From Mucilaginibacter sp. Bleaf8 (lineage in GTDB: Bacteria; Bacteroidota; Bacteroidia; Sphingobacteriales; Sphingobacteriaceae): 64,000 nt of DNA. The DNA is taken from contig NZ_JAHBBK010000002.1 of the NCBI RefSeq assembly GCF_018390515.1, positions 663,743-727,742 of the forward strand. Direction: 5' to 3'. Numbering within the stretch: position 1 is the first letter of the stretch; each line of letters starts with the position of its first letter. Both the position numbers and the translations under genes were made by a program. Under the pieces are notes generated by a model. It was not told the origin of the DNA, made no database searches, and was given only the letters and a program-made list of their open reading frames with translations. Below, piece after piece: positions 10,733 to 59,725 of this stretch.

Positions 10733-11935
10733 ATGAATAATACATCAGAAATGTACAGCTTCAGTTCAAAACTGTGGTTTAATAAGAGGGCTATTGCCTT
10801 TAAAACCGGTGAAGCATCTATCTACCTTCAGGTAGTCATAAATAGGTCTCACAAAGAATTTCCGCTAAAACTTAAATGGCCAGTCCACAAGATTGATTTA
10901 GCCAAAGGATTGCTATTGCCTCGCCAGCGCGGCGATAAAGACGTCGACGATTACAATCTCTTGCTACTTAGTGAGCAGGCGAAGCATATCGAAATTTTAC
11001 GGAGTTACCGTATCAGGCGTGCGCCTATCGACATGCAGAAGTTCATACGTGAACTGAATACATTTGACAACAAAGACAGCTTTATCGCTTTTATGCTGGG
11101 ACATAACCGGCGCCGGTATGATAGTAAAGAAATTGAAAACCGTACATATAAAAATGTTCGGTCCACAATAATGCTGATGATGGATTTCAATCTAAGTTGG
11201 CGCTATGAGATGTTAACCGTAAAATTTTTGAAGCAGTTTAAAATTTACCTGCAGGGTAAGGATTATGAACCCGGTCATATATGGTCAAAAATAAGGGATG
11301 TGAAATCTCATCTGAAAATGGCATCCACTGAACCATTGATACACGTCGATCCGGAGGTGATTGCATTTTCAAATCCCCAACCACAGTGGCGCACTACTTA
11401 CCTCAACCGTGAGGAGGTAAATTTGTTAATCAAGGTATATCGCGAAGAGGAGTTAAAGGCTATGGACAGAAATGTCTTGCGCGCGTTTCTTTTCACCTGT
11501 TTCACCTCATTACGAATCTCTGATGTATATCGTGTGAATGCAGACTGGCGAATAGACGAAAACTTTATTGACTTCATCCCCAAGAAAAATCAAAAGAAGC
11601 GTAAGCGGCTAAAAGTGCCAATAATGGGTATGGCGACTATGTTTATCCAGAATGAAGCAGGCCAATACTTTGACCTGCCAACCGAGCAGGAGTATAACAG
11701 AACCTTGAAGCTAATGGCCAGCAAGGCTGGGATAAAGAAAAGACTAACCAGTCACGTTGGTCGTCATACCTTCGGTTATCTTTTTATGACTACGGTAGGC
11801 AATATGAAAGCCTTGCAAGAAATTCTCGGTCACACCAATTCAAAAACCACAGAGCGGTATGCTCATCTTGATGATGAGTACAAATATTTATCTGTTATGC
11901 GAATGCAGGAGGGCTTCGATAACCTCAGATTGTAG
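10733..11935 (+). CDS. int: Tyrosine recombinase / phage integrase of E1
   Basis: 400 residues in the Bacteroidota integrase layout: N-terminal arm-binding domain (about 1-95), SAM-like core-binding domain (about 100-215) and catalytic domain. Catalytic residues are all present: Arg261 (TSLRISDVYR), His341 and Arg344 (SHVGRHTFG), His367 (LGHTNSKTTERY) and nucleophile Tyr376. The start MNNTSEMYSFSSKLWFN follows the candidate arm sites by 3 bases. It reads away from the tRNA and should catalyse integration at, and excision from, the 14-bp core. It is closely related to the broken integrase at 57423 (similar in length, with identical key blocks). Confidence 0.95.
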   Translation: MNNTSEMYSFSSKLWFNKRAIAFKTGEASIYLQVVINRSHKEFPLKLKWPVHKIDLAKGLLLPRQRGDKDVDDYNLLLLSEQAKHIEILRSYRIRRAPIDMQKFIRELNTFDNKDSFIAFMLGHNRRRYDSKEIENRTYKNVRSTIMLMMDFNLSWRYEMLTVKFLKQFKIYLQGKDYEPGHIWSKIRDVKSHLKMASTEPLIHVDPEVIAFSNPQPQWRTTYLNREEVNLLIKVYREEELKAMDRNVLRAFLFTCFTSLRISDVYRVNADWRIDENFIDFIPKKNQKKRKRLKVPIMGMATMFIQNEAGQYFDLPTEQEYNRTLKLMASKAGIKKRLTSHVGRHTFGYLFMTTVGNMKALQEILGHTNSKTTERYAHLDDEYKYLSVMRMQEGFDNLRL

Positions 11936-12090: not shown

Positions 12091-12636
12091 TTAGAGCTTC
12101 GTTTTAGCTTCAGAAACTAAGGCCCCTAGTGCCTTGAAGGCTTCTTGATCTAAAAAGAAGTAAGAATTGCTATCATACTTTTCGAGTTTCACATAACCTT
12201 TCCATTTCTTACTGTAGTTATAAGCGCCTCCAGAGAACCCCCCCCTTGAGTGAAAATTGTACTCGACACTATTTTCAGGGACTTCTGACGTAAAAACTTT
12301 ATTGTTTATATAATCAATAACTTTCAAAAAAGCGTCAATTTCATCGGCATCTAGCATAGCGCTCTTAGTATCGGAACCATAACTCGCGTGATAATTCGCA
12401 CTTAATTTGATCCCGGAAACGATTTTGTTAGATAACAGATCAGTGATTTTGATTACCTCTACTGTTACCTCCTTGGCCTTGCCAATCTCGACGAAGTCTT
12501 TTTTAGAAAATGTTCCAGCCTGCTCAGAGATAGTTTCGATGTTAGATTTTGCTGCTTCAGGCGTTGCTTTTTTAACCTGTGCATAAGTAAGTGTAGCGCT
12601 GGCCAAAAGTAGACCAATTAGTAAGGTTTTCTTCAT
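12091..12636 (-). CDS. Secreted hypothetical protein, candidate lysogenic conversion gene
   Basis: 181 residues with a clear signal peptide (MKKTLLIGLLLASATLTYAQ, cleavage near residue 20). The mature part is lysine-rich and alternates strands with one acidic helix (LDADEIDAFLKVIDYINNK). I know no named family. It sits between the integrase and the last virion gene, the usual place for a phage-borne host-modifying gene. The protein at 58691-59209, in the same position of element E2, has the same plan: signal peptide, an I-x-x-TD-x stretch, then a helix with EI-x-x-F-x-K. They look like distant homologues. Exported protein of unknown role. Confidence 0.7.
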   Translation of the reverse strand: MKKTLLIGLLLASATLTYAQVKKATPEAAKSNIETISEQAGTFSKKDFVEIGKAKEVTVEVIKITDLLSNKIVSGIKLSANYHASYGSDTKSAMLDADEIDAFLKVIDYINNKVFTSEVPENSVEYNFHSRGGFSGGAYNYSKKWKGYVKLEKYDSNSYFFLDQEAFKALGALVSEAKTKL

Positions 12637-12771
12637 ATAGAATATTAATTAGGTTATAAAGGTAAAATAAGTGGATGGATAATGGATAATAGCCAATCAA
12701 ATCGGGTTAAATCACTGATTGTTAATAAATATTATCCAAGCGCTTATATCAACTTAGCCAGCATTATCCAT

Positions 12772-13212
12772 CTACTTAATCTGTATTTGCTTTACAGCAG
12801 CATCAGCTTTAAAGCCGGCAACAATATCCGCCAGCTTTGGTACCTCTTCCTCCAGTACCGGGTTCAGCCACTCTTCGGCTTGCCGCTCACCAGTATTCAT
12901 TTTGCCGAATGAGTTGGGATTGGTTCGTTTACGCTCACCGTTGGGCCCGATCCAGCTGGAGCCTTTCGTACCGCCATGTCCTTTACCCGCACCTTTGTGC
13001 ACGAATACCAAGTGGCGGTCAAAGATGAAACCGCCCTGGTCAACCTCACCGTATTTGGATTTAGTTTTATACTTCAGCCGGTCAAGGCTGTCACCACTTC
13101 GGTTGGCACTGGTGACAAGGCGCATATACCGGCCTTTAATTTTACGGTAGGTGGTTCCAAACCACCCCTTGACCGCATTGTTCTGGGCGTTTAAGTTATC
13201 AGGCGTTGACAT
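12772..13212 (-). CDS. Minor virion/tail completion candidate (146 aa)
   Basis: A basic, Gly-rich soluble protein. No family recognised with certainty; its C-terminus (EEWLNPVLEEEVPKLADIV) resembles the end of HK97 gp10/Mu gpG-type tail completion proteins, which is a weak resemblance. It starts inside the last codons of the tape measure gene (14-bp overlap), so it is translated as part of the tail operon. A copy broken by two 1-bp deletions lies at 59287-59725 in E2, again next to a tape measure end, showing the gene pair is an ancestral unit. Confidence 0.7.
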   Translation of the reverse strand: MSTPDNLNAQNNAVKGWFGTTYRKIKGRYMRLVTSANRSGDSLDRLKYKTKSKYGEVDQGGFIFDRHLVFVHKGAGKGHGGTKGSSWIGPNGERKRTNPNSFGKMNTGERQAEEWLNPVLEEEVPKLADIVAGFKADAAVKQIQIK

Positions 13213-16200
13213 TATCTAAAATCTCCTGCATTTTTTCTTCGTTCTTTTTGAATATCCTGTTGCTGAACGTCAGCTTCATGTTGGCCACTGCATGGCGGGT
13301 CATGCGCATCTCGTCAACTAATGGCGAGAGGTCAACGGGTGGAGGAGCTGGCGCTGCCGGCGTTTGAACGGTTACCGGCTGTTGAACCTTTTTTACCGCA
13401 TTGCTAAAGCCACCGGCTTCGAAGCGGCGCACACCGCGGTTAGCTTCCATTGCCCCAACGAAATCGGAGATCACCGGGTCCTTCAGCTGCTCACTGCTCA
13501 CAATGTATTCGGTTTTGAATTTCTCACCTGCAGTATACTCACGGCCGCTCGCGCTGTTTTTAAACAGGGTAGGGCTGCGCACCCAGCCTTGTGGCTTCTT
13601 ATAATCAACGGACGAATAACCACCGTCCTCATACTGCGGCGGTTTCTCTTTGCCAATCTTTACCACCTGAACAGCGGTAGCTGCTGCAACGGCAGCGGCA
13701 TTTATGAGGTTGAACGGCCAGGGCGAAGAGGCCAGTGCCATAGTAACGGCTAGCGCTCCGTTGATAATAGCCTGTGTACGCTTTGCCGCCTGATCCGCTT
13801 TCCAGGCTTTGAGCTTGATCTGGGCGGCCTGCTTATCGTACTTATCTTCAATGGCCTGCTTTTGCGCTTCGGTCAGGTTTTTATTTTGCAGTTCTTTTTC
13901 TTTACGCTTGTCGAGCGAGGCGAGCTGTGCATCTGTTTCGGCTCGGCGGTTATTCGCTCCAACTTCAAAGAAAGCATCTGATATAGCACGGGTCGTTTCA
14001 TAAGCTGCCTGTTCGATAGCCTGTTTTACTTCCTTGTCCTTTTCCTTTTCATATTGTGCCGTTTCATTTTTTCGGTTCTTTTCTATTACGCCAAGAGCCT
14101 CTTGAAACTTTTCCTCTAAGTCTTTCCGCTTTTCAAAGTTCCTCTTAAGAGCGTCAATCTGATCATCATACTTTTTATTGATCCGGGCAAGCTCAATCTT
14201 ATCCTTGTCGGAGGCGGACACCACCCCTTGCTGCTTCAGCTCTTCAATCGTATCCTGCAGGCGTTTTTCTTCCCGAATCTTCGCGTCGGCAATTTCTTTT
14301 GCGCGGTTTTCTTCCAAGTACATCCACTCCTCCAAGTCGAGGGCGTTTTCCTGCTGTTCATCATAAAAGGCATTGATGCGGACGCTTTCTTTCTGTAGTT
14401 CGGTTTCGTGGGCGTTAGCCAGCGACCGGCGAAGCGCCAGCACTTTATCGGTCAGCTCTTTTTCCTGCCGAAAAATGATGTTGTTAACGGCCTGCGCCTG
14501 ATCGGCTTCCAGCTTTTCAATGTTCTCATTAGTCGTTGCAGCCTGTGCCTTGCTAACACCTTTTTGCAGCAGGAACGCTTTTTCCTTATCAATCAGCTTT
14601 TGGTACTTATCAGAAGCGGCCTTGATCTCACGGGAATTAGCGGCCATCGCCTCTTCGCTCGATTTACCATACAGCTCCTTTACTTCTTTCTGAAGCTGGT
14701 TAAACTGCCGTTTCGCTTTTTTAACAGGATCTTCTTCTTTACCACCGCCACCTATACCGGTATCGATACTAATCTCCTTTAAGCGTTTGCGGATAGCCAC
14801 CATCTCAGTAGCTACCTTGTTATATTCCTCGGTACCACGCTTTAACTGAGCGATGGCTTTCGTGTCTTTGGCTAGCTGCTCTTCCAGCTGATCTTTGGTT
14901 GAATTCTTCAGATCGAAGCCGGCACTACCACCATTTTCGGTATCTGTGATTAAATTCTTTTTGATGTCTTCACCAAAGTTGGCCTTGAGCGCCTCCATCT
15001 GCTGGTCTATCAATTGGAGCGCTTCTTCCTTATTGAAATTTTTAGTTCTATCCAAATATCCCTGGCCATCCTGAAAAGTAATATCCCTGGCTATTACACC
15101 TACCCATTGTGCAACATTCAGGTCTTTACCCTCCCGCATGACGGTTTGGCGTTGCTTCTGAAGTTCCTTCATCTGCTCAAAGGCTGCTTCCGCGTTGGCC
15201 CGTCGTTCCAACTGGCGTATATATCCTGCGATAGCGTCCGTTGCTTTTAAGGCAAGCACCTGTTCATCTGAATAGGATTTTAAATGTTCCGGCATTATCT
15301 CCCGAAGCCTTGCCACTGCCTGAAGCTTTTCATACCTTGTTGCTGTTTCACTTTTGAGGATAGCCTGCAACTGCTCAACTTTGGTCTTTTCATCGATGAT
15401 CTTATCGGCTCCTTCCTGGTGAACCTTGTTCATCATTTCCTGAACCTTGACTGCATTGTTGACCTCGGATTTAAACAATACCAGGGCAGTGATCACAGCG
15501 GCAATACTGGCCACAATTAACCCGATCGGGTTGGCGCCGGCTACCACGTTGAACGCGGCCATCTCGGTTTTGGCCAGTGCCCATTCACCACGCATCAGGG
15601 CGACTACTACTTTCTGCGCAGCCGTGGCCAGCGTGACCAATTTTGTATAGGCCTCGGTTGCCTTGAGCGTGGCGATCCAGTCTTTTTGCAGCAGTATCGT
15701 GATACCGAGTACGGCATTGTAAGCGCCATACGCCACGGCACCCACGATGACCAGTTTAGTAACGGCCGAAATAAAGCCCATAGCTTTGTTCAGTCCGTCA
15801 ATAAAGGCGGAAGTAGCTTTAACCAGGGCGATCAGGAAGGTGGTCAGATTGGAGTTTGAAGTAAGCGCGTTGAACTTCTTACCGAGCTTTTCCAGCGTAG
15901 CCGCAAAGTTGTTGTTCTTAACGTTGTATTCGTTCGTCAGTGAGATACCCTCATCAAACGAGCTTTTAGCCATCTTTTGCCGTTCCTGCAAAAGCTCCAG
16001 GTTATTAGTCAAAAGGCCCAGCGCTGCCGTCGCCCTGGCACCCTCTTCACCGATCATGCCCATGCTTTCGGCCATAGCGCCGATACCTTCACCGGATGAT
16101 TTTAAATTCTTCAGTACCGCGATCAGCGCCTGGTTGCCATCCGTGGCCAGTAGCTTGCTGAACTCAGCAACACTCAAACCCGCAACCTTGGCAAACTTCG

Positions 16201-17065
16201 GAATATCCTTACCCAGCCCCATTACGAACTGGCTGATGGCGGTGGACGCGGCTTCAGCCGGTTGGCCCAGCTCGTCCATGGTCGCCGCTAAACCGAGAAT
16301 ATCCTGAATGCTGATTTTGGCCTGCGGTGCGATACCACCGAGCCGTTTGGTAAATTCTACTATGTAACCCTCATTGGCCGTACCGGCTGCGCCCAGGTCA
16401 TTGATGGCCGAACCGGTTTTAAGCAGGGCCTGCTCCAGTCCGTAGGCATCTTTGATCTTAAAGATTTCTGTCAGTTTACCCAGGTCATTGATAGCGCCTT
16501 CGGCATTGCCCAAATCTTTGCCCAGGGCAACGTTGATCTGGTCAGCTGCTTTAACAAATCCCAGGACGTTTTCCTCACCGGTAATACCGAGTTTACCGGC
16601 CACTTCGGCCAAACTGCTGAGTTCCGCCCGGGACGAGCGGGTGTCGATCTGTTTAAATGAAGATTGCAGCCTTTTGACAGCTGCTTCGCTCATGCCGGTG
16701 GTTTTCTGGATATCGGCAATGCTATCGGCCAGCTTTGCATTCTGGCTGATGATGTTGCGGAACTGGTCGGTAACGAACTGAAAGCCGAGAAAGCCGGTAG
16801 CCAGTACACCCAGTTTACCGATCTCGGTTTTCAGCCAGCCAAAGGCGCCGCCAACGCCGCGTATATCGTTCTGAACGTCCTGCAGCACGCGGTTGACCTG
16901 CCGGAGTTCCATCATTTTCCGCTTAAACTCTTCGGTGCCCGGAATGAGTTGGGCCAGCTGGTTACGTAGTTTTCGCGAACCTGCTTCCAGGTTCTTTAAG
17001 GTCATGTCGGCCTCACTGCCATTGATGAAAATGGAGACTCGCCTTACTTCTTCTCTTGATGCCAT
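13199..17065 (-). CDS. Phage tail tape measure protein
   Basis: 1288 residues. The N-terminal third has the phage minor tail protein/tape measure signature region (about 90-420) with repeated ALxxTGSAIN and GxxxAEAAS-type helices; a hydrophobic stretch follows at about 440-530 (VVGAVAYGAYNAVLGITILL; GLIVASIAAVITALVLF); then long charged coiled coils (about 540-1100), a second Ala-rich segment and a proline-rich end. It sets tail length and is a tail-lumen protein that may help DNA entry. Such length suggests a tail of roughly 180-200 nm if the usual 0.15 nm per residue holds. It precedes the 146-aa gene with overlap. Confidence 0.93.
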   Translation of the reverse strand: MASREEVRRVSIFINGSEADMTLKNLEAGSRKLRNQLAQLIPGTEEFKRKMMELRQVNRVLQDVQNDIRGVGGAFGWLKTEIGKLGVLATGFLGFQFVTDQFRNIISQNAKLADSIADIQKTTGMSEAAVKRLQSSFKQIDTRSSRAELSSLAEVAGKLGITGEENVLGFVKAADQINVALGKDLGNAEGAINDLGKLTEIFKIKDAYGLEQALLKTGSAINDLGAAGTANEGYIVEFTKRLGGIAPQAKISIQDILGLAATMDELGQPAEAASTAISQFVMGLGKDIPKFAKVAGLSVAEFSKLLATDGNQALIAVLKNLKSSGEGIGAMAESMGMIGEEGARATAALGLLTNNLELLQERQKMAKSSFDEGISLTNEYNVKNNNFAATLEKLGKKFNALTSNSNLTTFLIALVKATSAFIDGLNKAMGFISAVTKLVIVGAVAYGAYNAVLGITILLQKDWIATLKATEAYTKLVTLATAAQKVVVALMRGEWALAKTEMAAFNVVAGANPIGLIVASIAAVITALVLFKSEVNNAVKVQEMMNKVHQEGADKIIDEKTKVEQLQAILKSETATRYEKLQAVARLREIMPEHLKSYSDEQVLALKATDAIAGYIRQLERRANAEAAFEQMKELQKQRQTVMREGKDLNVAQWVGVIARDITFQDGQGYLDRTKNFNKEEALQLIDQQMEALKANFGEDIKKNLITDTENGGSAGFDLKNSTKDQLEEQLAKDTKAIAQLKRGTEEYNKVATEMVAIRKRLKEISIDTGIGGGGKEEDPVKKAKRQFNQLQKEVKELYGKSSEEAMAANSREIKAASDKYQKLIDKEKAFLLQKGVSKAQAATTNENIEKLEADQAQAVNNIIFRQEKELTDKVLALRRSLANAHETELQKESVRINAFYDEQQENALDLEEWMYLEENRAKEIADAKIREEKRLQDTIEELKQQGVVSASDKDKIELARINKKYDDQIDALKRNFEKRKDLEEKFQEALGVIEKNRKNETAQYEKEKDKEVKQAIEQAAYETTRAISDAFFEVGANNRRAETDAQLASLDKRKEKELQNKNLTEAQKQAIEDKYDKQAAQIKLKAWKADQAAKRTQAIINGALAVTMALASSPWPFNLINAAAVAAATAVQVVKIGKEKPPQYEDGGYSSVDYKKPQGWVRSPTLFKNSASGREYTAGEKFKTEYIVSSEQLKDPVISDFVGAMEANRGVRRFEAGGFSNAVKKVQQPVTVQTPAAPAPPPVDLSPLVDEMRMTRHAVANMKLTFSNRIFKKNEEKMQEILDNVNA

Positions 17066-34277: not shown

Positions 34278-35798
34278 TTATTTGGATTTGAGTAAATGGC
34301 TGGGTAGCCAGAGGCCGGAGCTGGAGAGATTGTGTGCGTATTTGAAGTAAGCCAGCATGTCACCGGCATCGGAGAAGTGGGTGGTGTAGCGCTGATCGAG
34401 GTGCGGGTTCTTCTCGTCCGTCTTCACCTTTTCGATACCCTTCAGGCCATCCTTAGCGGCGGCGTTGTTGATGGATTCGATCAGGTACTTCGCATTGTTC
34501 TTGTTCCATGCAAAGTGTGGCAGCGATGGATCATTGTTACGCAGTGCGATGTTCCAAAAGTTGTACTTATCCACGTGCGTTGGTGCTGCACCATAGTACT
34601 CCTCATACACCGTCCATCCCCGCTTATCCAGTGTCTCCACCACGATCTCGGCATAAGTCTTCGGGGTACGGCCATCACGGCCAACAGCGGTCTGATCATA
34701 CCAGTAGGTAACCGTCTTATCCACGTGGAATTCATAGTAATCACACCACTGATTAACCAGGTCTTCCGTAAGCTTTGGGCTTTCGACCGAAAAGGCAGAA
34801 ATAAATCTGAAGATGTTCATTGTTTCCTGCCCGGTCACGATACAATTGAACTTACCGTAGTCCAGCGCGATGTCCAGTGGTGCATTCGGGTACCAGTCTT
34901 TATCCTGCCTGCAATCGAGGTTATTGAAGGTGTTGACGTTGTAGGTACCGTCATTATCCAACAGGCCTGCCAGGTAATCATTGTTGTAGGCCGTATAGGT
35001 ATGCATCTGTTCGTTGAACAGCGGATAGAAACCACCACCCAAAGCTTTAGGCCGTATGTTGTTGATCTCGATATCGTACTCATACTTGGTCATGATCCGC
35101 TTCTGGTCCTCGAACCAGCCTGCCGGCAGATTAGCCTTGTTTATATGGGAGCTGGCACGGACGTAGAACACTTTCTCCGGGCTGACCTGCGCTTCTTCCT
35201 GGTACTTGTACATGAACTTGCCCAGCTGTGTGCGCGGGATGGATGAGGTGTAGGTTTGGTTCCGGTACCGGCGACATTTTTCAAACCGATGCTTCTGGCC
35301 TCGGATGGTGGCCAGCGTTTCCGCCTGGAACTGTACCGGGTCGAGCAGGGCAAACTCATCGGCAATACCGGAGCAGGTGTTCAAACCGCGGGAGTTGGTA
35401 TCCTGGCTCAATAGCAGGTAAACGGAGCCATTGTAAAAGGGAATAGCCCGGCCATAATCCAGCGGCGGCTCGAAAGCTTCTTTCCATCTCAGCTTCTTAT
35501 CCGGCTTGCAGCACACCTTGTAATGGATGTCTTTTTCGTACCCCAACGTGCGCAGGGATTCGATAGTTGACGGCAGGGTACGGGTTAATATTTGTTGGAA
35601 GGTGGCACCTTGTAAGAAGTTGGTAGACTGTGGCATATCATGCACCACATCTACAATCTCATCAGCCAAAACGGTAGACTTTCCAACACCACGGCCTCCC
35701 TCTACAACTTTAACAGGTTGCTTCGCAGTCCGTACTAGGTACTGCATCAGGTTTCGGGTAATTTTCTTTCTTGGCAGGCTGGCTCTATTCTTCATCAT
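34278..35798 (-). CDS. terL: Terminase large subunit
   Basis: 506 residues. ATPase with Walker A EGGRGVGKST (33-42) and Walker B GIADEFALLD (144-153); the C-terminal nuclease domain shows acidic clusters beginning at DIALDYGKFN (about 330). It pumps DNA into the capsid and cuts it. The start MMKNRASLPRKKITRN overlaps the upstream gene by 14 bp. Three genes of probable small-subunit and accessory role precede it. The 304-codon plus-strand frame within it is a shadow. Confidence 0.9.
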   Translation of the reverse strand: MMKNRASLPRKKITRNLMQYLVRTAKQPVKVVEGGRGVGKSTVLADEIVDVVHDMPQSTNFLQGATFQQILTRTLPSTIESLRTLGYEKDIHYKVCCKPDKKLRWKEAFEPPLDYGRAIPFYNGSVYLLLSQDTNSRGLNTCSGIADEFALLDPVQFQAETLATIRGQKHRFEKCRRYRNQTYTSSIPRTQLGKFMYKYQEEAQVSPEKVFYVRASSHINKANLPAGWFEDQKRIMTKYEYDIEINNIRPKALGGGFYPLFNEQMHTYTAYNNDYLAGLLDNDGTYNVNTFNNLDCRQDKDWYPNAPLDIALDYGKFNCIVTGQETMNIFRFISAFSVESPKLTEDLVNQWCDYYEFHVDKTVTYWYDQTAVGRDGRTPKTYAEIVVETLDKRGWTVYEEYYGAAPTHVDKYNFWNIALRNNDPSLPHFAWNKNNAKYLIESINNAAAKDGLKGIEKVKTDEKNPHLDQRYTTHFSDAGDMLAYFKYAHNLSSSGLWLPSHLLKSK

Positions 35799-44087: not shown

Positions 44088-44471
44088 TTATCGTCCTCCG
44101 AAAAATGAATTAATGAATTGGTTATGCGCAAAGCCGGCAATGGTAGCCTGCTCTTTCTCCGCCTCGGTCTTTTCAACCTTTGGATCGGCAGGAGGTACCA
44201 CCGGCGCTGCCGCTGCCGGCGCTTCAGCGACCTTAGCTTTTAAAGCAGTATTTTCTGCTGTCAATGTGCCGATGGTGCTGTTAGCTGTAGCAAGGTCAGT
44301 TGTTAATTTAGCGTTAGCCTGTGTAGCTTCGGCTGCATCGGTTACAACTGATTCCGGATGCACGCCAAATGCCGTGATGCCTGCCTCTGTCAGCTCTGCG
44401 TTAACAGCTGCTAACTCATCCTGGCTCGCTGCAGTCTTGCCAGCCAGGGCAAATAGTTTTGGAAATTTCAT
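44088..44471 (-). CDS. Possible internally started scaffold protein (127 aa)
   Basis: Nested in frame with the S49 protease: an internal ATG at 44471 reads MKFPKLFALAGKTAASQDEL and runs to the same stop. Upstream bases are AT-rich (ATATAAAC just before ATG), as Bacteroidota starts often are. The region is the coiled-coil scaffold part. Lambda-type Nu3 translation from within C is the precedent. Not provable without ribosome or protein data. Confidence 0.4.
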   Translation of the reverse strand: MKFPKLFALAGKTAASQDELAAVNAELTEAGITAFGVHPESVVTDAAEATQANAKLTTDLATANSTIGTLTAENTALKAKVAEAPAAAAPVVPPADPKVEKTEAEKEQATIAGFAHNQFINSFFGGR

Positions 44472-45419
44472 GTTTATATTTAAATCAGGGTTATGTGCGG
44501 AAAATGATGAAGAAGATGATTTGCGTTTGCTGTCGGCGCCATCAGCCATTTCCTCCAGTCGCGCAAAGGCTGCGCTGTAGGAGAGAATACCGTCAATGAG
44601 GCCTATCTCTTGCGCCCAGCTGGCCGAACCGTCCTGCCCTTTGTTCCATGCGGACGGTTTTCCCTGGAGCCGGTCGCCACGGTAGTCGGTTACTTTTTGG
44701 ATAAATGTTTGGGCAACAGCGCTCAGGCTCTCATCAAGCAAGTCGTAATTGCCTTTCATAGCATCACGATAAGTTTTATTTTTCTCGGTGCTTTCCGGTG
44801 CGTAACGGTCAATGACTTTGATGCCCATTGCTTTCAGGCGCTCGGAGTGATCCTGAATGGTTTGATATACACCAATACCACCGATCGTATTCAGCTCATG
44901 TGAAGCATATACCTCGTCAGCTGCCAAGCCGGTCCAAACACCACCGCTGCACATCAGGCCGTCATTTACAAAAGCCAATGAGGGTTTACCGAAATCATTT
45001 ATGGCGTCGGCCAGGGAAGAGGTACCGGATACCTGACCACCAGGGCAATCCATTTCGATAAAAAGACCGCGAATGTTGTCATTCGCTTTCGCCTCCTGAA
45101 CAAGTTGCGTTAGCTCGTATGATCCGGAGCTACAATAGCCATATTTCATTAGCGGGCCGATCAGATCGATCTTAGCAAAACTGCCCTTGGGCGCTTTTTC
45201 GAAACCGGAAAAATAAGAAGGAGCGAAGAGCGTACCGGCAGTGATCACACTGACACGGTAATCGGGGGATGGCTTTGGAGCCTGCCCGAAATTGACAGAT
45301 TTTCCTTCCAGTACATTCGCCCAGATGGAAATATTGTCCTTTGCCCACTGTGCATCAAGCAACCAGGCGTTACGAAGAATGGCGGATATTAAGTGAAACT
45401 CACTATTCATTTGCTGCAA
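44088..45419 (-). CDS. S49 peptidase fused to scaffold-like C-terminus (capsid maturation protease)
   Basis: 443 residues. The SppA/S49 fold covers about 80-290: DCPGGQVSG (124-132), nucleophile Ser158 in MCSGGVWTGLAAD, and NTIGGIGVY (177-185). After a Ser/Lys linker (about 295-310) an Ala-rich coiled coil (317-443) resembles a scaffolding protein. Phage lambda C/Nu3 works this way: the protease and the scaffold share a C-terminus. An in-frame ATG at 44471 starts the scaffold part (see separate entry). The capsid gene follows after 2 bp. Confidence 0.85.
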   Translation of the reverse strand: MQQMNSEFHLISAILRNAWLLDAQWAKDNISIWANVLEGKSVNFGQAPKPSPDYRVSVITAGTLFAPSYFSGFEKAPKGSFAKIDLIGPLMKYGYCSSGSYELTQLVQEAKANDNIRGLFIEMDCPGGQVSGTSSLADAINDFGKPSLAFVNDGLMCSGGVWTGLAADEVYASHELNTIGGIGVYQTIQDHSERLKAMGIKVIDRYAPESTEKNKTYRDAMKGNYDLLDESLSAVAQTFIQKVTDYRGDRLQGKPSAWNKGQDGSASWAQEIGLIDGILSYSAAFARLEEMADGADSKRKSSSSSFSAHNPDLNINMKFPKLFALAGKTAASQDELAAVNAELTEAGITAFGVHPESVVTDAAEATQANAKLTTDLATANSTIGTLTAENTALKAKVAEAPAAAAPVVPPADPKVEKTEAEKEQATIAGFAHNQFINSFFGGR

Positions 45420-46642: not shown

Positions 46643-46942
46643 TTAAACACTTAACGGTAAATTTTTGCGCGGATCCATTAACGAGAATGTCATGTCGATG
46701 CATTGCCTGTATGCAGCGTACCATTGCAGAGCCTCGGTGATCGATTCCAGTTGGTACCCATCACTATACTGTGTTTCAAATGCAAACGATGCATTTTCGC
46801 TCTTACCGTAGAAATCCATCTTTCCCGGAGTTGGCTGATAGTCTTCTGAAGCCAAGTCATAAACCCGAATCCGGATGCCCAGGGCTGGGCTTGCGATTAG
46901 CGTTTCAGTTTCGTGGTGTACCAGGTAAAAAGCAGCTGACAT
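46643..46942 (-). CDS. Hypothetical phage protein (99 aa)
   Basis: 99 residues, aromatic-rich (FYLVHHETETLIAS; DFYGKSENASFAFETQYSD). No family known. Lies at the start of the minus-strand head string, 83 bp before the 155-aa gene. Confidence 0.5.
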   Translation of the reverse strand: MSAAFYLVHHETETLIASPALGIRIRVYDLASEDYQPTPGKMDFYGKSENASFAFETQYSDGYQLESITEALQWYAAYRQCIDMTFSLMDPRKNLPLSV

Positions 46943-47550
46943 ATTTACAAAGATAGCGCTAAAACGCCGACAAGTAAATAACGATGGTAGTCCGCAGGTA
47001 GTATTTTGTGTTGTCGTTTCTCTGGAGGCATCACGTGCTTAAATTGTATCAAATTCAAAAACTGAAATAAAAGTCATTTTAACTGTTACAACTGTTACAG
47101 TGTTACATGTCTATGTAACCTATTGATTGTTAGCTTTTTGAGTTTGTAACGTTGTTGTAACAGCTGTAACACTTTGTAACACATTGTAACGTTTAAAATC
47201 CTGTTGTTACAAATTGTTACACTTTTTTGTTTTCTTCTATTCTCCTCACTTTCAGGTTTATTATTTTTTCTACATAAAGAAAAGTTATAGTGTTGTAACA
47301 GTTGTAACGCTTTTTTAGGGAAATTTAAAAAATGTATTTTTACAGAATATAATTTTGTTGCTCGCTCAAAAAATTTTCGAAGTACCCCTCTCTCTCGTAA
47401 AAATGTGAAAAAGCGGATTTTGCGGTGGTGGGAAGAAGATAAAGGTATTCAGCTGATGTGATCAGCTGAATTGTGTGCGTTGTTCCTATGCTTCGCAAAG
47501 TCACGAACGCGCATGGGTAATACAGGTTCATTAATTATTGAAGCTTAAAT
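46943..47550. other. Non-coding control/origin region
   Basis: 608 bp with no convincing gene. It contains the TGTAAC repeat cluster (47085-47308), followed by AT-rich DNA and the region upstream of the plus-strand 82-aa gene. A 63-codon minus frame at 47340-47531 is considered spurious. Confidence 0.6.
47085..47308. repeat. Cluster of 13 TGTAAC/GTTACA motifs
   Basis: GTTACA at 47085, 47094, 47102, 47206 and 47216; TGTAAC at 47114, 47145, 47156, 47165, 47175, 47185, 47294 and 47303. Several are 9-11 bp apart, on one face of the helix. Mixed orientation and dense packing suggest iterons of a replication origin or a multi-site operator. It sits between opposing transcription units. Confidence 0.75.
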
Positions 47551-47801: not shown

Positions 47802-48527
47802 ATGTGTTACCATTACTCACAGACCCGCAGCAAGCAAGCGCTAAAAGAGCGTTTTAAAGCTGAACTGGAAGAAGGAACTAAAATTGAGCCGGTATACCAT
47901 AATAACGGCTTTCAGCACCGCGCCATGCCGGTGATCACGGCTGATGAGCCGAAAACCATACAGCTCTACCGGTGGGGATTAATCCCGCACTTCATGAAAA
48001 CGCGTGAGGATGCTATCAAGATAAGTAACCTAACGTTGAATGCTATTGGTGAAGAGATACACCAGAAGCCATCTTATAAGCAATACATTACCAAAAAGCG
48101 TTGCCTGGTGCTAGCAGATGGGTTGTATGAATGGATGCACGCGGGTAAAGAAACGTATCCGCACTTCGTTTACCTGAAGGAGCGTAAGCCGTTCGCCTTT
48201 GCCGGCATTTACTCGCACTGGAAGGATGAGCAAACGGGTGAGGTGATCAAAACCTATTCGATCATCACTACGGCGGCCAATAAGCTGATGTCAAAGATTC
48301 ACAACACGAAACAGCGCATGCCGGTGATCCTCCGCCCGGAGCTGGAAAGAAAGTGGCTAGATCAAACGCTACTTAAAGAAGAGATTAACGACCTGATGCT
48401 GCCCTATGATGACGAGTTAATGGAAGCGCATACGATCACCAAAGCATTCTCAAGCAAAAAGGCTATTACCGATGTGCCGGATATTCAGTGTGTTGTAGAG
48501 TACCCAGAGTTGGCACTATGGGGATAA
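47802..48527 (+). CDS. SOS response-associated peptidase (SRAP/HMCES family)
   Basis: 241 residues. Catalytic Cys2 follows the start Met (MCYHYSQTRS). GLIPHFMK near 58, NAIGEEI near 81, CLVLADGLYEWMHAG near 103-117 (Glu) and RMPVIL near 171 match the SRAP fold. Homologues YedK and HMCES form a covalent thiazolidine with abasic sites in single-stranded DNA. A phage copy would protect replicating DNA. Plus strand, opposite to most early genes. Confidence 0.88.
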   Translation: MCYHYSQTRSKQALKERFKAELEEGTKIEPVYHNNGFQHRAMPVITADEPKTIQLYRWGLIPHFMKTREDAIKISNLTLNAIGEEIHQKPSYKQYITKKRCLVLADGLYEWMHAGKETYPHFVYLKERKPFAFAGIYSHWKDEQTGEVIKTYSIITTAANKLMSKIHNTKQRMPVILRPELERKWLDQTLLKEEINDLMLPYDDELMEAHTITKAFSSKKAITDVPDIQCVVEYPELALWG

Positions 48528-51762: not shown

Positions 51763-54099
51763 TTAGTTAAATTTGATATTGTCTTCGTCGTCTATTAGCT
51801 TACCGGTCTTCCGCATTTCCAGAACCTGGTCGTAGTCCATATAATCGCCCAGTTCATTGCGGATCTCGTCTTCGCTCAGGAAGTCTTCAATTCGGAATTC
51901 GTAGCACCTGCCAACTTTATCATCCGTGCGCGTATTTTTATTGCCGTACGGATCGTTAGGGAATTGGTAGCGGCCCATACGTGGGGTAAGGCCCAGCTTT
52001 GCCTGGAGCTGCTCTTTAATATCACCCTTTCTAAACCGAACGCCGGAACTTGGCCCGTTCAGTAAATCATAAATTTCTTTAAGGCTATAGTAAAGGGTAT
52101 GGTACCGGTAATCGAAGAAGTGCTCTTTTAAAGCCTCGTTCAGTTCCTGGACAAACCAACCTTTTGATTTTTCCTTGATCTTGCGAAGGGCATCGGTCTC
52201 CAGCAGGTCTTTATGAAACCAGAAGCGGCCGCTCTCCGGGTGAACGATCTTTCTGTTCTGCAGGTAATGCAAAAAGTAGGGGAGTTCTTCGATCATTTTC
52301 TCCAGTAAGTGCGGATCTTCTTTCTTGTATACAGGCACCTTCACTACCCAAAAGCGAATCTCTTCTTTATCGATCACGATAAAGTTTTCTTCATCGTTAG
52401 AGGTCAGAATGAACCAGCCAAAGAAGCTTACATCCTGACGCCCGGCATACATGCCCCTCAGCTTGATCTTGTCATTAGTAGACTGAGACTTAATTTTCTC
52501 CAGTACGATCTTTTTATCAATAAAGCCCTCATCAATGCCGATGATAGCTTTGGATGCCCAGTCATCATTGTACTGGTCATTGATCTCCTGGTTGCCAATT
52601 ACCGTTGCGTTTTCGCCAAATATTTCACGCATCAACCATAAGAAAGTTGATTTACCGGTATTACGCTCGCGGTTAACCAGGCAAAGGATTGGTAGCTTTT
52701 GCGTTGGTCTGAGGTATTTAAGTTGTATACAGTCCAAACCAAGGTCTAAACTTGTTGTGCTGCCGTCACCGATCGGATGCTCACCGAAAACGTGCGTTAA
52801 GTAACTTCTGATTGAGCTCCAGTCACCAGCTTCGGGGTCATGATCCAGCTGGTAGTACATATTGTAGCATTTGTTGATGACCTGCTCGTATTCTTTAGTG
52901 TTATTGGGTACGTTGCAGAATGCATCGTACTTCGGAATCTGATCGAAGAAATTTTCGAATCCTTTTTTTACATAGTCCATGGTGATCTCACCCTTACTCC
53001 AGGGAATGCGGCGTTTTTCCAGCACACCTTTTGAGTTAGGTACTTTGATCTCTTTAAAGTAATCACAGGCCACGCGGATATACTGCGCGCTGTCCTCGTG
53101 CTTAACCATCTCCAAGCCGATGTCTTTGCTGAACTGGAATAAAGCTCCATTGAAATTGAATACCTGCTCTTTGATTGTATCTTCATGCCAGGCATAAAAT
53201 AATGCCGGCAGGTTTTTATTGTAGGTAAGCAGAAAATAGGACTTAATCTTGTTGACGCTTTCCGTCTTCAGATTGAGTGTTTTAAAATAAACCCTGGAGT
53301 CGGCTAGCTTTGCGATATCGGTCAGGATCTTGTCTTCTTGGCCGCGTAATAAGAATAAAAGATCGTCAAGGCCTTTCGCTTCTCGGATATAGGCCTGTTT
53401 TACATGGGAGAAGTAAACATCTTTCACTTTTTCTTTCGCCAGCTCTCTGAAGTTTTTCACTGAGCTGTAAAAAGAATTAAGGCGTTTAGCCAGGTCTTTC
53501 TGCGGTTCATCAACGATGTTCCAGTTCAATTCGAACAGGTCGCCATCAAGTAACAAAACGAGGTTTTCAACCTTACAAGCCTTGATGAGCGCTTGTATAT
53601 CGCCATGCAGACCACCTTCCGGATCTTTAAACAAATCTTTACCGCCCAGGCCTACAATGTCAAGTCCGGCGAGAGAGCCGGCGAAAGCTTTAAACTCACC
53701 CTCTACAACGTAAAGGGTTTTGATCTCAGCTTTATCCTTGAATTTTTTCAGGATGCTTGGCGGGTGGAAAATATGAACGCCCGAATTAGGCTGCTGGAAA
53801 TACTTGTGCCTTGGATCATGCTGATTGTCCGGGTGAATACGTATCCGCCAAAAGGCGTTTTCAGAATCAGCAATGGGTTCAGCGCCACCATACAGGCAAG
53901 GGTAGTGTATCTTGATGTCGCCGTTCTCAGTTGGCGCAAAGATCGGCTGTTTGTAGCTGGTACCCGGAAACTCAACATCTACCTTGAAAAAGTGATCAGC
54001 GGTGTTAGTTATGCCAATCTCGTACATGCGTTTTTCGAAGTACGTTTCCTGGTGTTCTGGATTAATCGTGGTAGTTTGTTTATGTTGACGTGGAGCCAT
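51763..54099 (-). CDS. Primase-helicase (TOPRIM + superfamily 3 helicase)
   Basis: 778 residues. The N-terminal third has a TOPRIM-type segment: VVEGEFKAFAGSL (Glu133 in the first acidic site) and LLLDGD (about 182-187). The central-C-terminal part is an SF3/DUF5906-like ATPase: Walker A RNTGKST (G482-K483), Walker B GIDEGF (D523-E524), sensor TSNDEENF, and arginine finger near FWVVKVP. A fused primer-synthesis and unwinding enzyme, used at the phage origin. It is the largest early gene and lies near the TGTAAC cluster (4.5 kb away). Confidence 0.85.
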   Translation of the reverse strand: MAPRQHKQTTTINPEHQETYFEKRMYEIGITNTADHFFKVDVEFPGTSYKQPIFAPTENGDIKIHYPCLYGGAEPIADSENAFWRIRIHPDNQHDPRHKYFQQPNSGVHIFHPPSILKKFKDKAEIKTLYVVEGEFKAFAGSLAGLDIVGLGGKDLFKDPEGGLHGDIQALIKACKVENLVLLLDGDLFELNWNIVDEPQKDLAKRLNSFYSSVKNFRELAKEKVKDVYFSHVKQAYIREAKGLDDLLFLLRGQEDKILTDIAKLADSRVYFKTLNLKTESVNKIKSYFLLTYNKNLPALFYAWHEDTIKEQVFNFNGALFQFSKDIGLEMVKHEDSAQYIRVACDYFKEIKVPNSKGVLEKRRIPWSKGEITMDYVKKGFENFFDQIPKYDAFCNVPNNTKEYEQVINKCYNMYYQLDHDPEAGDWSSIRSYLTHVFGEHPIGDGSTTSLDLGLDCIQLKYLRPTQKLPILCLVNRERNTGKSTFLWLMREIFGENATVIGNQEINDQYNDDWASKAIIGIDEGFIDKKIVLEKIKSQSTNDKIKLRGMYAGRQDVSFFGWFILTSNDEENFIVIDKEEIRFWVVKVPVYKKEDPHLLEKMIEELPYFLHYLQNRKIVHPESGRFWFHKDLLETDALRKIKEKSKGWFVQELNEALKEHFFDYRYHTLYYSLKEIYDLLNGPSSGVRFRKGDIKEQLQAKLGLTPRMGRYQFPNDPYGNKNTRTDDKVGRCYEFRIEDFLSEDEIRNELGDYMDYDQVLEMRKTGKLIDDEDNIKFN

Positions 54100-54120: not shown

Positions 54121-54774
54121 TTAGACAGTTGTTGTTTTCGGTGAGTACAAGTCCGGGTTAAACCCATACATGAAATCGGGCGGATTTACCGGCTGCCGGC
54201 CTTTTAAAAATGATTTAAACTCCGGTAGTTCTACGCAAAGCTTTTGGTAAAGGAAATGATCGTCCTTAACCACTGGGTGCAAATGCTGGATCCAGAACCG
54301 GCCCTCCGTGTAGTCATCGTAAACACGGTCTTGCTCGTTTGTCGCGCAGATAAACCATGTTCTGCTTTTAATATAACGAGCATGTTCGTAGGGATTACGT
54401 ACCCTTATAACTTGGCTTGTTAGGTTCGTCACCATAACTCTAATCATACTAGGGGATAAGAAACCGCCATCAATACATACCACCCCACTTTCAGCCCATC
54501 CGTTGCCTCTGTGGGCTAGCATTTCGCTGTCAGCATTGATACAATCAAGCTCAAAAAGCGTATCGATCATCCATAACAAAGTAGATTTACCGGTGGGGCG
54601 GCCGTTACTTACCAAGCACAATATTGGAAGTTTCTGTATCGGGTTTCTAAGCTTAATGGTTAAGCAATCTAAGAAGAGCTCATAACGGCTCGGGCCAGAC
54701 TCATTGGCGTTAGATGATTTAAAAGTGTGTTGTAGGAAGGCCTCAATAGTAGGCCATAGGTGTTTATTCTCCAT
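54121..54774 (-). CDS. Stand-alone SF3 helicase-like paralogue (217 aa)
   Basis: 217 residues, similar to the helicase half of the neighbouring primase: LPILCLV then GRPTGKST (58-65) parallels LPILCLVNRERNTGKST. The Walker B site reads VVCIDGGFL (Asp102 but Gly103 where Glu is expected), a change expected to weaken ATP hydrolysis. The sensor ATNEQ and EGRFW (arginine) remain. It lies 21 bp upstream of the primase-helicase. It could be a regulatory or inactive partner, or a degenerate copy; open reading frame is intact. Confidence 0.7.
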   Translation of the reverse strand: MENKHLWPTIEAFLQHTFKSSNANESGPSRYELFLDCLTIKLRNPIQKLPILCLVSNGRPTGKSTLLWMIDTLFELDCINADSEMLAHRGNGWAESGVVCIDGGFLSPSMIRVMVTNLTSQVIRVRNPYEHARYIKSRTWFICATNEQDRVYDDYTEGRFWIQHLHPVVKDDHFLYQKLCVELPEFKSFLKGRQPVNPPDFMYGFNPDLYSPKTTTV

Positions 54775-57312: not shown

Positions 57313-57349
57313 ATAACCGCTACAATAAAATGTAGCGGTTATTGCTTTT
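57313..57349 (+). terminator. E2 copy of the tRNA-proximal terminator
   Basis: ATAACCGCTACA (57313-57324) with TGTAGCGGTTAT (57331-57342), then TGCTTTT. Counterpart of 10621-10657; here no intact tRNA precedes it. Confidence 0.7.
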
Positions 57350-57401
57350 AAACGCTGTAAAAGGCGTTTCTATGGCTTTATCCGGTAAGCTAAAGTATTT
57401 C

Positions 57402-57420
57402 GTGCTCCGACATTGCTCCG
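57402..57420 (+). promoter_or_regulatory. Paired TGCTCCGA before E2 integrase
   Basis: TGCTCCGA at 57402-57409 and 57413-57420, 11 bp apart, as in E1. Just before the integrase start at 57423. Confidence 0.5.
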
Positions 57421-57422
57421 AC

Positions 57423-58654
57423 ATGAAAAAAACAGCAGAAGAAATGTACAGCTTCAGTTCAAACCTGTGGTTTAACAAAAGACGTGTGTCTAAAACCGGT
57501 GAAGTATCCATTTATTTACAAGTCGTAATAAATGGCGCTCACACAGAAATTCCTCTAAAATTAAGATGGCCTGCCGACAAGGTTGATGTGGTCAAGGGTG
57601 AACTTTTGCCAAAGCGAAAGCGTGACCCGGATGTTGACGACTATAATCTCCTCATCGCCACCGAGCAGGGCAAGCACACCGAGATCCTGCGTAGCTACCG
57701 ACTTAAGAAAGCTTATATTGATCTGGATATATTTCGCAGGGAGGTACAGACTTTTGATAACCGCGAAAGCTTTTTAGGTTTTATGATTACTGAAAACAAA
57801 GCGCGGTACAGAGATAAGGTCATTGAGCATAAAACTTTCCGTAACATCAAAAGCACCATTACCCTGATGGCCAAGTTCGATCCCAGTTGGCGTTATGACA
57901 CTTTGAACCAAAAATTCGTTGCTAAGTTTAAACGGTACCTGATGGAGCAAGACTATGAACCTGGCCAGGTATGGACTAAGATCAGAGATGTAAAGGCTCA
58001 CCTCACCATAGCCGCTAAAGAGCCAATGATCTTTATAGAACCGGATGTTTTGAAGTTTCCGAATCCTCAACCCAAATGGCGTACCACCTACCTGAACAGG
58101 GATGAACTTGGACGCCTTGTGAAGTTTTACGCCGAAGAGTACATGAGTTCTCACTGGAACCAGGTACTAAGAGCCTTTTTATTTACCTGCTTCACTTCCC
58201 TTCGTATATCGGATGTATACAGGATAAACTCCGACTGGCGGGTTGATGAAAATTATATTGACTTCATTCCGAAAAAGAATGAGAAGAAAAAGAAGCGGTT
58301 GATTGTACCGATTATGCCGATGGCCAACCAATTTGTAATAGATAGTCAAGGAATGTATTTTAACCTCCCGTCGGAACAGGAGTACAACCGTACGCTAAAA
58401 GAAATTGCTGAGAAGGTTAATATTGGTAAGCGCCTTACCTTACCAGCCACGTAGGCCGGCACACGTTTGGTTACTTATACATGACATCAATCGGCAACAT
58501 ACAAGGTTTAAAAGAAATATTAGGTCACAGCAAGGTCCAGACGACTGAACGATATGCACATTTGGATGATGACTATAAATTAGAATCGGTTAAGATTTTG
58601 CAGAATCACTTTCTGAAGAATTTCCAAGTGACCAGCAATGCACGGCTTAGATGA
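57423..58654 (+). pseudogene. int: E2 tyrosine integrase, broken by a 5-bp tandem duplication
   Basis: Homologue of the E1 integrase. It reads MKKTAEEMYSFSSNLWFNKR to ...GKRLTLPAT and then stops early at 58454. TTACC is duplicated at 58435-58439 and 58440-58444; removing one copy restores TSHVGRHTFGYL and the rest, with GHSKVQTTERY and the final TGA at 58652-58654 (about 409 residues). The Arg of the catalytic set is before the break; the HxxR, His and Tyr are after it, so the truncated product is inactive. Slipped-strand loss of one copy would repair it. Confidence 0.85.
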
Positions 58655-58657
58655 TAA

Positions 58658-58686
58658 AAAGCTACCGGGTATCTGCCGGTAGCTTT
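58658..58686. terminator. Terminator after E2 integrase
   Basis: AAAGCTACCGG (58658-58668) with CCGGTAGCTTT (58676-58686). It lies between the converging integrase and secreted-protein genes. Confidence 0.75.
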
Positions 58687-58690
58687 CTAT

Positions 58691-59209
58691 TTAATTAGTA
58701 CTTGTGAGTGCTTTTGACGCCTTGTCCAATTTGTCAAGTATTTCAACCAGACCCTCTTTTCCGAAGTTAAAGTCGGAATCTGGGTAGAAAGTATCGATGA
58801 CGATTTGGTAGTTCCATAAGTGCAACAGGTTGTTTTCGGTGACGTTAAATTGAAATCGGTTGGAAGAAGTAATTCGGACTTTGCCGTGTTGCCTTATTTC
58901 AGTATCATCCTTCAGTTTCAGAAGGGTTTTGATAAACAACTGAATTTCTGCCTTATCGATTATATTTATTATTGCCTGGTCACCACGTTCTACTTGAAAC
59001 TGCAGTCCCCCCCAGATGCTGTCAGTTGTCATATCTGTCGCTCTAATTATGTCCAGTTTGACTTTGCCATCAAGGCTGCCCAAAGAATCATACTTTTTAC
59101 TGATTGGTGTATTTTGTTTGCTCATAAGTTGAATAAGCCGCCCAGGCTTCGTTTGGCCAATCCCCGCAAACGGGAGTAGCCAGACAGCAAAGAATAAATA
59201 TCGCTTCAT
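58691..59209 (-). CDS. Secreted hypothetical protein, E2 counterpart of 12091-12636
   Basis: 172 residues from the ATG at 59209 (16 codons after the longest frame start): signal peptide MKRYLFFAVWLLPFAGIGQ. The mature part has KLDIIRATDMTTDSIWGGLQ, then KAEIQLFIKTLLKLKDD and an acidic C-terminal helix. Position next to the integrase and signal peptide plus helix layout match the E1 protein, but identity is low. An accessory exported protein of unknown role. Confidence 0.7.
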   Translation of the reverse strand: MKRYLFFAVWLLPFAGIGQTKPGRLIQLMSKQNTPISKKYDSLGSLDGKVKLDIIRATDMTTDSIWGGLQFQVERGDQAIINIIDKAEIQLFIKTLLKLKDDTEIRQHGKVRITSSNRFQFNVTENNLLHLWNYQIVIDTFYPDSDFNFGKEGLVEILDKLDKASKALTSTN

Positions 59210-59286
59210 GTAGTTAATTGAGTTTACAACAGAAAGGTAATAATTAACCACCAACACAGAAGAGTTTTATCCAATTTACCTTGTAG

Positions 59287-59725
59287 TTATTTGATCTGCA
59301 CCTGCTTTACCGCTGCATTAGCCTTGAAGCCGGCCACGATATCGGCCAGCTTAGGCACCTCTGCCTCAGTACCGGGTTCAACCATTCCTCAGCCTGCCGT
59401 TCACCGGTATTCATTTTGCCAAAGGAAACCGGGTTAGTTCGCTTACGCTGGCCATCTGGGCCAATCCAGCTGGAGCCCTTGGTTCCGCCATGACCCTTGC
59501 CGGCACCCTTGTGCACGAACACCAGGTGACGATAAAAGATGAAACCGCCCTGGTCAACTTCGCCATATTTGGATTTGGTTTTATATTTCAGCCGGTCAAG
59601 GCTGTCACTACTTCTGTTCGGACTGGTGACAAGGCGCATGTACCGGCTTTTGATTTTGCGGTAGGTGGTTCCAAACCATCCTTTGACCGCCTCGTTTTGG
59701 GCTGTTAATTATCAGGCGTTGACAT
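59287..59725 (-). pseudogene. Frameshifted copy of the E1 146-aa tail gene
   Basis: Matches 12772-13212 nearly throughout. A 1-bp deletion soon after the start (MSTPDN then frame loss) and another near the end (after EEWLNPVL) break it; the longest open part is 110 codons. It starts inside the tape measure remnant's end, as in E1. Confidence 0.85.

Follow-up and report, generated by a model that had tools for sequence, protein, structure and literature searches.

A cluster of thirteen TGTAAC hexamers in a tailed prophage of Mucilaginibacter is very probably the replication origin of that prophage, with the hexamers acting as iterons that would be bound by the phage's own primase-helicase. We draw this reading from comparative sequence analysis and structure prediction. 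The observations behind it are the repeats themselves, a layout that is conserved among relatives, co-inheritance of the cluster with one protein, a hexamer that changes by clade and the predicted domain layout of the protein. Throughout, 'the window' is the whole 64-kb stretch of DNA that was analysed.

The TGTAAC cluster and its setting

The first-pass annotation had listed thirteen TGTAAC/GTTACA motifs in 224 bp, and the recount returned the same number: 13 lie at 47085-47308, against 0.8 expected (mean 0.84 and maximum 6 in 5000 dinucleotide shuffles of the cluster alone). In the 608-bp intergenic stretch as a whole, 5000 dinucleotide shuffles gave a mean of 0.73 and a maximum of 5 TGTAAC, and the commonest hexamer of any kind (with at least three different letters) came to no more than 9 in 1000 shuffles. 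The proposed count over the remainder of the window was also run. It found 31 copies on both strands where shuffling predicts 28.2, so the word is not frequent window-wide, and 13 of the 31 fall inside the cluster. The cluster therefore has the array of many short repeats, beyond chance, that is looked for in an iteron origin.

The description of the motifs as partly helically phased and of mixed orientation was borne out. Successive copies start 9, 8, 12, 31, 11, 9, 10, 10, 21, 10, 78 and 9 bp apart, so that the steps are mostly 8-12 bp, and the starts are in phase at a period of 10.0 bp (vector length 0.77, the highest of ten periods tried). From left to right there are three reverse copies, one forward, five forward, two reverse and, after a 72-bp gap, two forward (Table 1). 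The outer pairs are the two arms of a perfect 15-bp inverted repeat (47085-47099 and 47294-47308), and the AT-rich spacer inside it is a candidate unwinding element. DNA folding of the cluster gave a z of -3.1, a value for which the opposed iterons may by themselves be sufficient, although a cruciform is possible. No clear turn in GC skew was found around the cluster.

Table 1. Features of the cluster and its surroundings (positions in the window)
Feature	Position	Strand	Basis or remark
Iterons 1-3, GTTACA (minus-strand TGTAAC), starts 47085, 47094 and 47102	47085..47107	-	Motif positions
Iterons 1-3, outermost two, left arm of 15-bp inverted repeat	47085-47099	-	
Iteron 4, single TGTAAC	47114..47119	+	No perfect copy in the three same-genus relatives
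Iterons 5-9, central array, five TGTAAC, 9-11 bp spacing	47145..47190	+	
Iterons 10-11, opposed pair, 10 bp apart	47206..47221	-	One perfect copy in G087 and G170
72-bp AT-rich spacer (75% AT) between iteron sets	47222..47293	.	Composition
Iterons 12-13, TGTAACAGTTGTAAC, right arm of 15-bp inverted repeat	47294..47308	+	
Candidate initiator, 778-aa primase-helicase, PF19263 (DUF5906)	51763..54099	-	Pfam, model, structural matches
Partial paralogue, 217 aa (L047), helicase core only	54121..54774	-	Aligns to primase-helicase residues 425-632
Integrase	10733-11935		PHROG match
Tape measure protein	13199-17065		PHROG match
Large terminase	34278-35798		PHROG match; 11 kb from cluster
Head maturation protease	44088-45419		PHROG match
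First leftward gene beside cluster, 99 aa, no family	46643..46942	-	Relative in G153 only; neighbour, outside the putative origin
SRAP/YedK-type gene beside cluster	47802..48527	+	Taken as cargo

The window carries a tailed prophage, as judged by PHROG matches (five of the ten proteins submitted had none). Its ORFs up to 46942 run mostly leftward, and the early region, which includes the primase-helicase and its partial paralogue, is also leftward, from 56918 to 49189. The cluster sits between this early region and the leftward region that ends at 46942; a small gene also adjoins it. Beyond the right end of the prophage, at 57342-59639, lies a second integrase, shortened by eye and with a weak PHROG match. 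ORFs near it resemble by eye those at 12091-13212, and the segment looks like the remnant of a related prophage in tandem.

Conservation in prophages of the same genus

With the primase-helicase as query, 15 of 149 same-genus genomes gave a match. Besides the window's own genome, three carry a full-length relative (71% identical in G153, 48% in G087 and 50% in G170), and in all three the cluster lies at the same place with the order and orientation of its sets unchanged. Pairwise identity is 83% in the motif columns, 47% in the other columns of the cluster and 39-40% in the flanks. The left set has three sites in each of the four prophages, the outermost reading GTTACG in G170, and the central array has four or five copies in the relatives, some of them CGTAAC. 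Iterons 12-13 are found in all four prophages, one base shorter in G170, and the gap that matches the 72-bp spacer is 70 bp in G153 and about 59-70 bp in other relatives. G170 lacks one letter from the spacer of each arm of the inverted repeat, so the arms may change together, to judge from this single case.

The rest of the prophage is shared far less evenly. G153 has many more window genes in common than G087 or G170. Among 44 selected window ORFs, the primase-helicase alone has its own relative in the G170 region (about 52 kb); the G087 region (also about 52 kb) holds a relative of the primase-helicase and a weak integrase match (24%). The ORF of the helicase paralogue matches only the primase gene itself in G153, G087 and G170. 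From this comparison the cluster travels with the primase-helicase and not with the regulators, the late genes or the cargo, and because it does so between otherwise dissimilar viruses it is most likely a start site for the phage's copying enzyme. Joint inheritance of repeats and candidate initiator is thus seen, though not in every relative. As the primase and a weak integrase match are all that was detected in common with the window's tailed phage, the G087 and G170 elements may be another kind of virus. Ten ORFs lie beside the putative origin in these elements (L051 in G087 and L052 in G170), six without a PHROG match and the rest mostly with weak ones.

The same relatives bear on the other function that the first-pass annotation had offered beside a phage replication origin, namely a multi-site operator. 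An operator or activator array that controls the late genes on the leftward strand, the SRAP genes on the rightward strand or both would suit the window itself, where the cluster does lie between opposing units, as had been described (a leftward ORF with its start codon at 46942 and a rightward ORF from 47551). Five bases before that start codon stands TATCTTTG, a -7-like box in leftward orientation, and a spacing of about 10 bp also fits cooperative regulators. However, the opposing arrangement does not extend to G087 and G170, where the nearest longer ORFs run leftward on both sides. The LuxR-like protein has a relative in G153 only, and the XRE-like ORFs have one in none of the three regions, although distant regulators could be missed; in many relatives, furthermore, the array stands directly behind the helicase gene. 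With the regulators that were compared missing from the distant relatives and the neighbours of the cluster changing, an operator is unlikely, and the origin half of the proposal is favoured by the co-inheritance with the primase-helicase, the change of hexamer by clade and the predicted C-terminal winged helix. It is possible that the initiator doubles as a repressor at the cluster.

The SRAP gene was taken as cargo because G153, G087 and G170 have their nearest SRAP matches a long way from the cluster. That the hexamers are a Bacteroidetes SOS (non-canonical LexA) operator array for this gene is scarcely credible. SRAP genes are tied to SOS by name, and one diverged SOS site, TTAC-AAATT-GTAA, is described (PMC8565304), but TTAC-N5-GTAA, CTAA-N5-TTAG and GGA-N5-TCC are all absent from 46943-47550 and the cluster is kept in prophages with no SRAP gene nearby.

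TGTAAC palindromes also occur elsewhere in the genus. G002 has seven scattered palindromic repeats of about 100 bp built of GTTACA/TGTAAC (L011, L016, L020, L024 and L026-L028); in six of them the array is followed by a tail like TGACAAACCATTGGCAGTGGTGG, and in L024 the tail is inverted and precedes the array. G023 has two TGTAAC hairpin clusters 1.5 kb apart (L010, 1481-3024) with similar hairpins of GAAACA step nearby, which look like a family with 9-bp internal repeats. The cluster might accordingly be a genus-specific interspersed repeat that landed in the prophage by chance, but we regard this as highly improbable: the window's genome has no other cluster by the paired pattern (four matches outside the window, against five for the reversed control pattern in the whole genome), the phage element keeps one place in divergent phages, and the G002 copies have sequence in common beyond their hexamers that is missing from it. 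The G002 repeat is not the phage element.

The candidate initiator and its relation to known systems

The primase-helicase is predicted to comprise a DnaG-like primase (about residues 1-302), an SF3 AAA+ helicase (about 330-640) and a C-terminal winged helix (about 646-735). Its structural model has a mean pLDDT of 84.5 and a pTM of 0.53. The first 300 residues of the model match DnaG catalytic domains (Z about 12.6), residues 333-735 match the helicase region of NrS-1 (6k9c; Z 25.2, sequence E 7e-17) and residues 335-718 match the SaPI5 primase-helicase (7om0; Z 17.8); the structural matches listed cover the helicase and primase halves separately, and none among them spans the whole enzyme. 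The winged helix is predicted from the order of elements at the C-terminus of the whole-enzyme model, which is helix-strand-helix-helix-strand-strand. A primase, an SF3 helicase and a predicted C-terminal DNA-binding domain are therefore found in one element. The cluster ends 4.45 kb past the stop codon of the primase-helicase gene; its position on the 3' side of the gene is retained. The partial paralogue is unlikely to read the iterons, because the winged-helix part is missing from it; it could act on the ring helicase as a decoy or as a regulator.

The earlier view that the cluster matches no system that can be named did not survive comparison, as it resembles the iteron origins of SF3 helicase initiators, namely P4 alpha, SaPI Rep and SCCmec Cch2. 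The P4 origin has short repeats in both orientations. By published descriptions, the alpha protein unites a primase, an SF3 helicase and a C-terminal winged helix in one enzyme, as modelled here; the P4 word differs from TGTAAC. As outlined in PMC4234260, the winged helix of alpha binds the origin repeats before the enzyme unwinds and primes, and the primase is of bacterial type; for the related enzyme of archaeal pRN1, the same source gives a stem-loop rather than iterons as the proposed origin. P4 is a satellite, whereas the window element is a temperate tailed phage with virion genes of its own.

The SaPI origin has two iteron sets around an AT-rich stretch, which is also the arrangement in the window, and the SaPI5 helicase is among the fold matches given above. 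SaPI Rep recognizes its iterons through the C-terminal domain of the helicase, has its origin directly downstream of its gene and carries a primase of archaeo-eukaryotic type, and the C-terminal domain of SCCmec Cch2 binds short direct repeats 3' of its gene, according to the account in PMC7581432. The differences are several. SaPIs are Gram-positive satellites and their primase type contrasts with the DnaG-like domain of the window enzyme; Cch2 has AAGTG iterons, in three 5-nt copies only, and its primase is a separate protein pair; and the iterons of both stand directly downstream of the helicase gene, unlike the distant cluster in the window. The NrS-1 phage primase-polymerase offers the closest solved helicase fold, but its N-terminal domain is a primase-polymerase and not DnaG-like, and we know of no iterons in NrS-1.

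Hexamer arrays beside DUF5906-type helicases

A search by primase alignment, in which the motif was not used, gave 55 loci (one genome contig and 54 viral). TGTAAC occurs at least eight times in 300 bp in 15 of them, four or five times in 4 and no more than three times in 36. Loci with arrays include some at 32-35% and at 22-27% identity in the best segment, and the primase-helicases that accompany the cluster or variants of its layout are 35-71% identical. L068, L070 and L071 keep the window's layout apart from differences of some bases in spacing, L073 has a modified layout and L069 a decayed form. In more distant relatives the array follows the helicase gene almost at once, at 3 bp in L082 and at 12 bp in L103, for instance. 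Some of the loci duplicate others: L072 has 300 bp of its primase gene identical to G087 and represents that element, and L103 and L105-L110 are near-copies of one sequence. The window primase had no match in the phage collection.

Arrays of any word were sought in 72 DUF5906-type loci, none of them brought in by the motif and some of them near-copies, by scanning ORF-masked DNA up to 7 kb from the helicase. At least six copies of one hexamer in 280 bp were found in 46 of the 72, against 0.7% of 720 shuffles; 42 of these 46 arrays are on the 3' side of the gene and 31 within 300 bp of it. Adding 12 loci from the motif scan gives a dense array in 58 of 84, 52 on the 3' side and 38 within 300 bp. 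A dense hexamer was absent in the other 26 of the 72, including L075 and L077 at 30-33% identity; L068 and L069 are among the 26 only since their array falls outside the 7-kb limit or just at it. No array was found for the paralogue L047 or for L046 and L048, which are fragments; these three were left out of the survey that gave the distances for L082 and L103. Helicases of DUF927 and NrS-1 type, with four loci and one locus respectively, are too few for a count free of motif bias.

A phylum-wide sample was picked by Pfam family and not by motif. The 30 best-scoring DUF5906 (PF19263) loci, from 80 genomes with a match, include 12 that carry a dense hexamer no more than 400 bp from the stop; in none of the 12 does either of the two leading words have a GTAA core. 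The best 30 VapE loci from 30 genomes, some below the family cut-off, left 29 with enough 3' DNA, of which 8 have a dense hexamer, and in 4 of these a GTAA core is present in the two leading words. Such helicases thus often have a dense array directly behind them, but by no means as a rule. The idea that all of them use TGTAAC was rejected on the same sample.

The reverse test started from the first 120 viral stretches listed by a triple TGTAAC pattern, with the first 120 listed by the reversed word CAATGT as control. The TGTAAC cluster has an SF3-type gene no more than 1 kb away in 16 of the 36 listed stretches with at least eight copies, 5 of 39 with six or seven, 0 of 32 with four or five and 0 of 13 with three; the corresponding figures for CAATGT, which is not a clean control as it may itself serve as an array word, are 0 of 9, 2 of 21, 0 of 48 and 3 of 42. 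The SF3 calls were made with local profiles seeded from proteins of the motif loci and one control protein. An SF3-type gene anywhere in the locus was hardly more frequent for TGTAAC (22 of 120 listed) than for CAATGT (19 of 120). In the same collection (L123-L242), strong TGTAAC clusters also stand beside Toprim/AAA_25 proteins, DUF3987 proteins and terminases, with no SF3 helicase found in the DNA examined.

These loci also raise the possibility that the cluster serves the phage in partition, like a centromere, or in packaging. Some centromeres are typically arrays of short words in both orientations, and a member of a terminase-small-like group lies within 5 kb in 10 of 75 strong viral motif loci, at a median distance of 126 bp. 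Against this, the large terminase of the window is far from the cluster, none of ten proteins scanned around the cluster is ParA- or ParB-like, and the array tracks the helicase across families; we therefore hold either function to be very unlikely.

The hexamer changes with the helicase

Shorter helicase loci in the same genus have a different word. In 11 of 13, dense TCATCA or CTCATC stands 1-357 bp 3' of the gene, and the two without are truncated. Of the 11, one is in the window's own genome (contig C15) and one in G170 (C8). Both genomes thus have two words, and each word goes with a different helicase. The word therefore follows the helicase and not the host, which tells against a reader encoded by the host.

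Of 67 VapE-type loci collected by protein match only, 56 have dense arrays. In the 360 bp around and after the stop, 58 loci were usable; 49 of them have at least six copies, compared with 3.4% of shuffles, and the top word contains GTAA or TTAC in 43 of the 58, against 16%. The words of this set include TGTAAC, GGTAAC, AGGTAA, TGTAAT and TAAACA.

To locate the region of the protein that varies with the word, identity in 40-column windows of 47 VapE proteins was correlated with the similarity of the downstream word spectra while identity in the rest of the protein was held constant. L363, L371, L425, L417 and L407, which have no array after the stop, were dropped by hand; loci with a top count below 5, identical proteins and pairs at least 95% identical were also left out, and 1057 of 1081 pairs were used. 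Overall, the closest agreement with the word is at columns 661-720 of 728, with a partial correlation of 0.28-0.34, although such correlations are inflated by relatedness and the sole control is the other windows of the same protein. Among pairs 60-95% identical, these columns reach 0.42-0.46 (median window -0.07); among pairs 40-60% identical, the C-terminal window comes second, at 0.19 against 0.20 for columns 391-430. In the more diverged family of the window's own enzyme, residues 704-743 reach 0.26 and are tied with residues 384-423 at 0.25. The C-terminal peak in VapE is what a word-reading C-terminal domain would be expected to give.

Five named phage records were read around a related gene, and a strong array stands near it in one of them. 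This is Flavobacterium phage mumin6-1 (MN812220), with 8-9 GGTAAC on the 3' side of its VapE gene. Muminvirus phages thus resemble the window element in the pairing of a primase-helicase with a dense array on its 3' side, and differ in the helicase family (VapE), in the word and in an annotation table that carries no repeat or origin feature. In mumin6-1 (L430, 6241-7068) the array is about 650 bp behind the VapE gene, after a nuclease gene that may have been inserted at the origin, whereas in L408 (a 39,365-bp contig) the GGTAAC array lies a few bases behind the VapE gene. Cellulophaga phi46:1 has 6-7 AAAGTT about 3 kb on the 5' side of the related gene and Nonlabens P12024L has 4-5 ATTACA near it; no convincing array was found around the related gene of Pseudomonas MP1412 or Pseudanabaena Pam3. 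In the PLEs of V. cholerae, the origin and the DNA-binding domain of RepA are described as covarying (PMC8263062), which provides a precedent for modules of origin and reader, although the initiator family differs.

Proposed mechanism and implications

At the proposed origin, the primase-helicase would recognize each TGTAAC through its C-terminal winged helix, and copies about one helical turn apart on both sides of the AT-rich stretch would permit the assembly of opposed ring helicases. The rings would open this stretch and load onto its strands; the protein's own DnaG-like domain would then prime, and the host DNA polymerase would extend the primers. We infer the steps from binding to priming because they are those of the initiator families named above. 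Several observations count against the origin reading. The candidate initiator gene is separated from the cluster by 4.5 kb and does not have it directly behind; 36 of 55 loci have no more than three TGTAAC and 26 of 72 have no dense hexamer; the GC skew makes no clear turn at the cluster; and the phylum sample (12 of 30), the named phages (a strong array in one of five), the tied correlation in the window's own family and the second place of the C-terminal window among VapE pairs 40-60% identical weigh on the same side.

More generally, we suggest, with slightly less than even confidence, that the origin of phages with VapE- or DUF5906-type enzymes is a clade-specific hexamer array read by the last 60-100 or so residues of the primase-helicase. 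Array and protein end would form a portable two-part cassette that crosses otherwise unrelated phages, the word would be predictable from the protein and vice versa, and a TGTAAC-like GTAA core would recur in several branches. A full-text literature search, judged by titles only, found no description of TGTAAC as a phage origin.

For this prophage group and for many viral contigs, the array indicates an origin and names a candidate for the protein that reads it. The words TGTAAC, GGTAAC, TGTAAT, TAAACA, TCATCA and others provide an evolutionary series in which helicase and word change together, and how SF3 initiators gain a new origin specificity becomes a directly testable question. Furthermore, two helicases with different words in one host would be natural compatible replicons.
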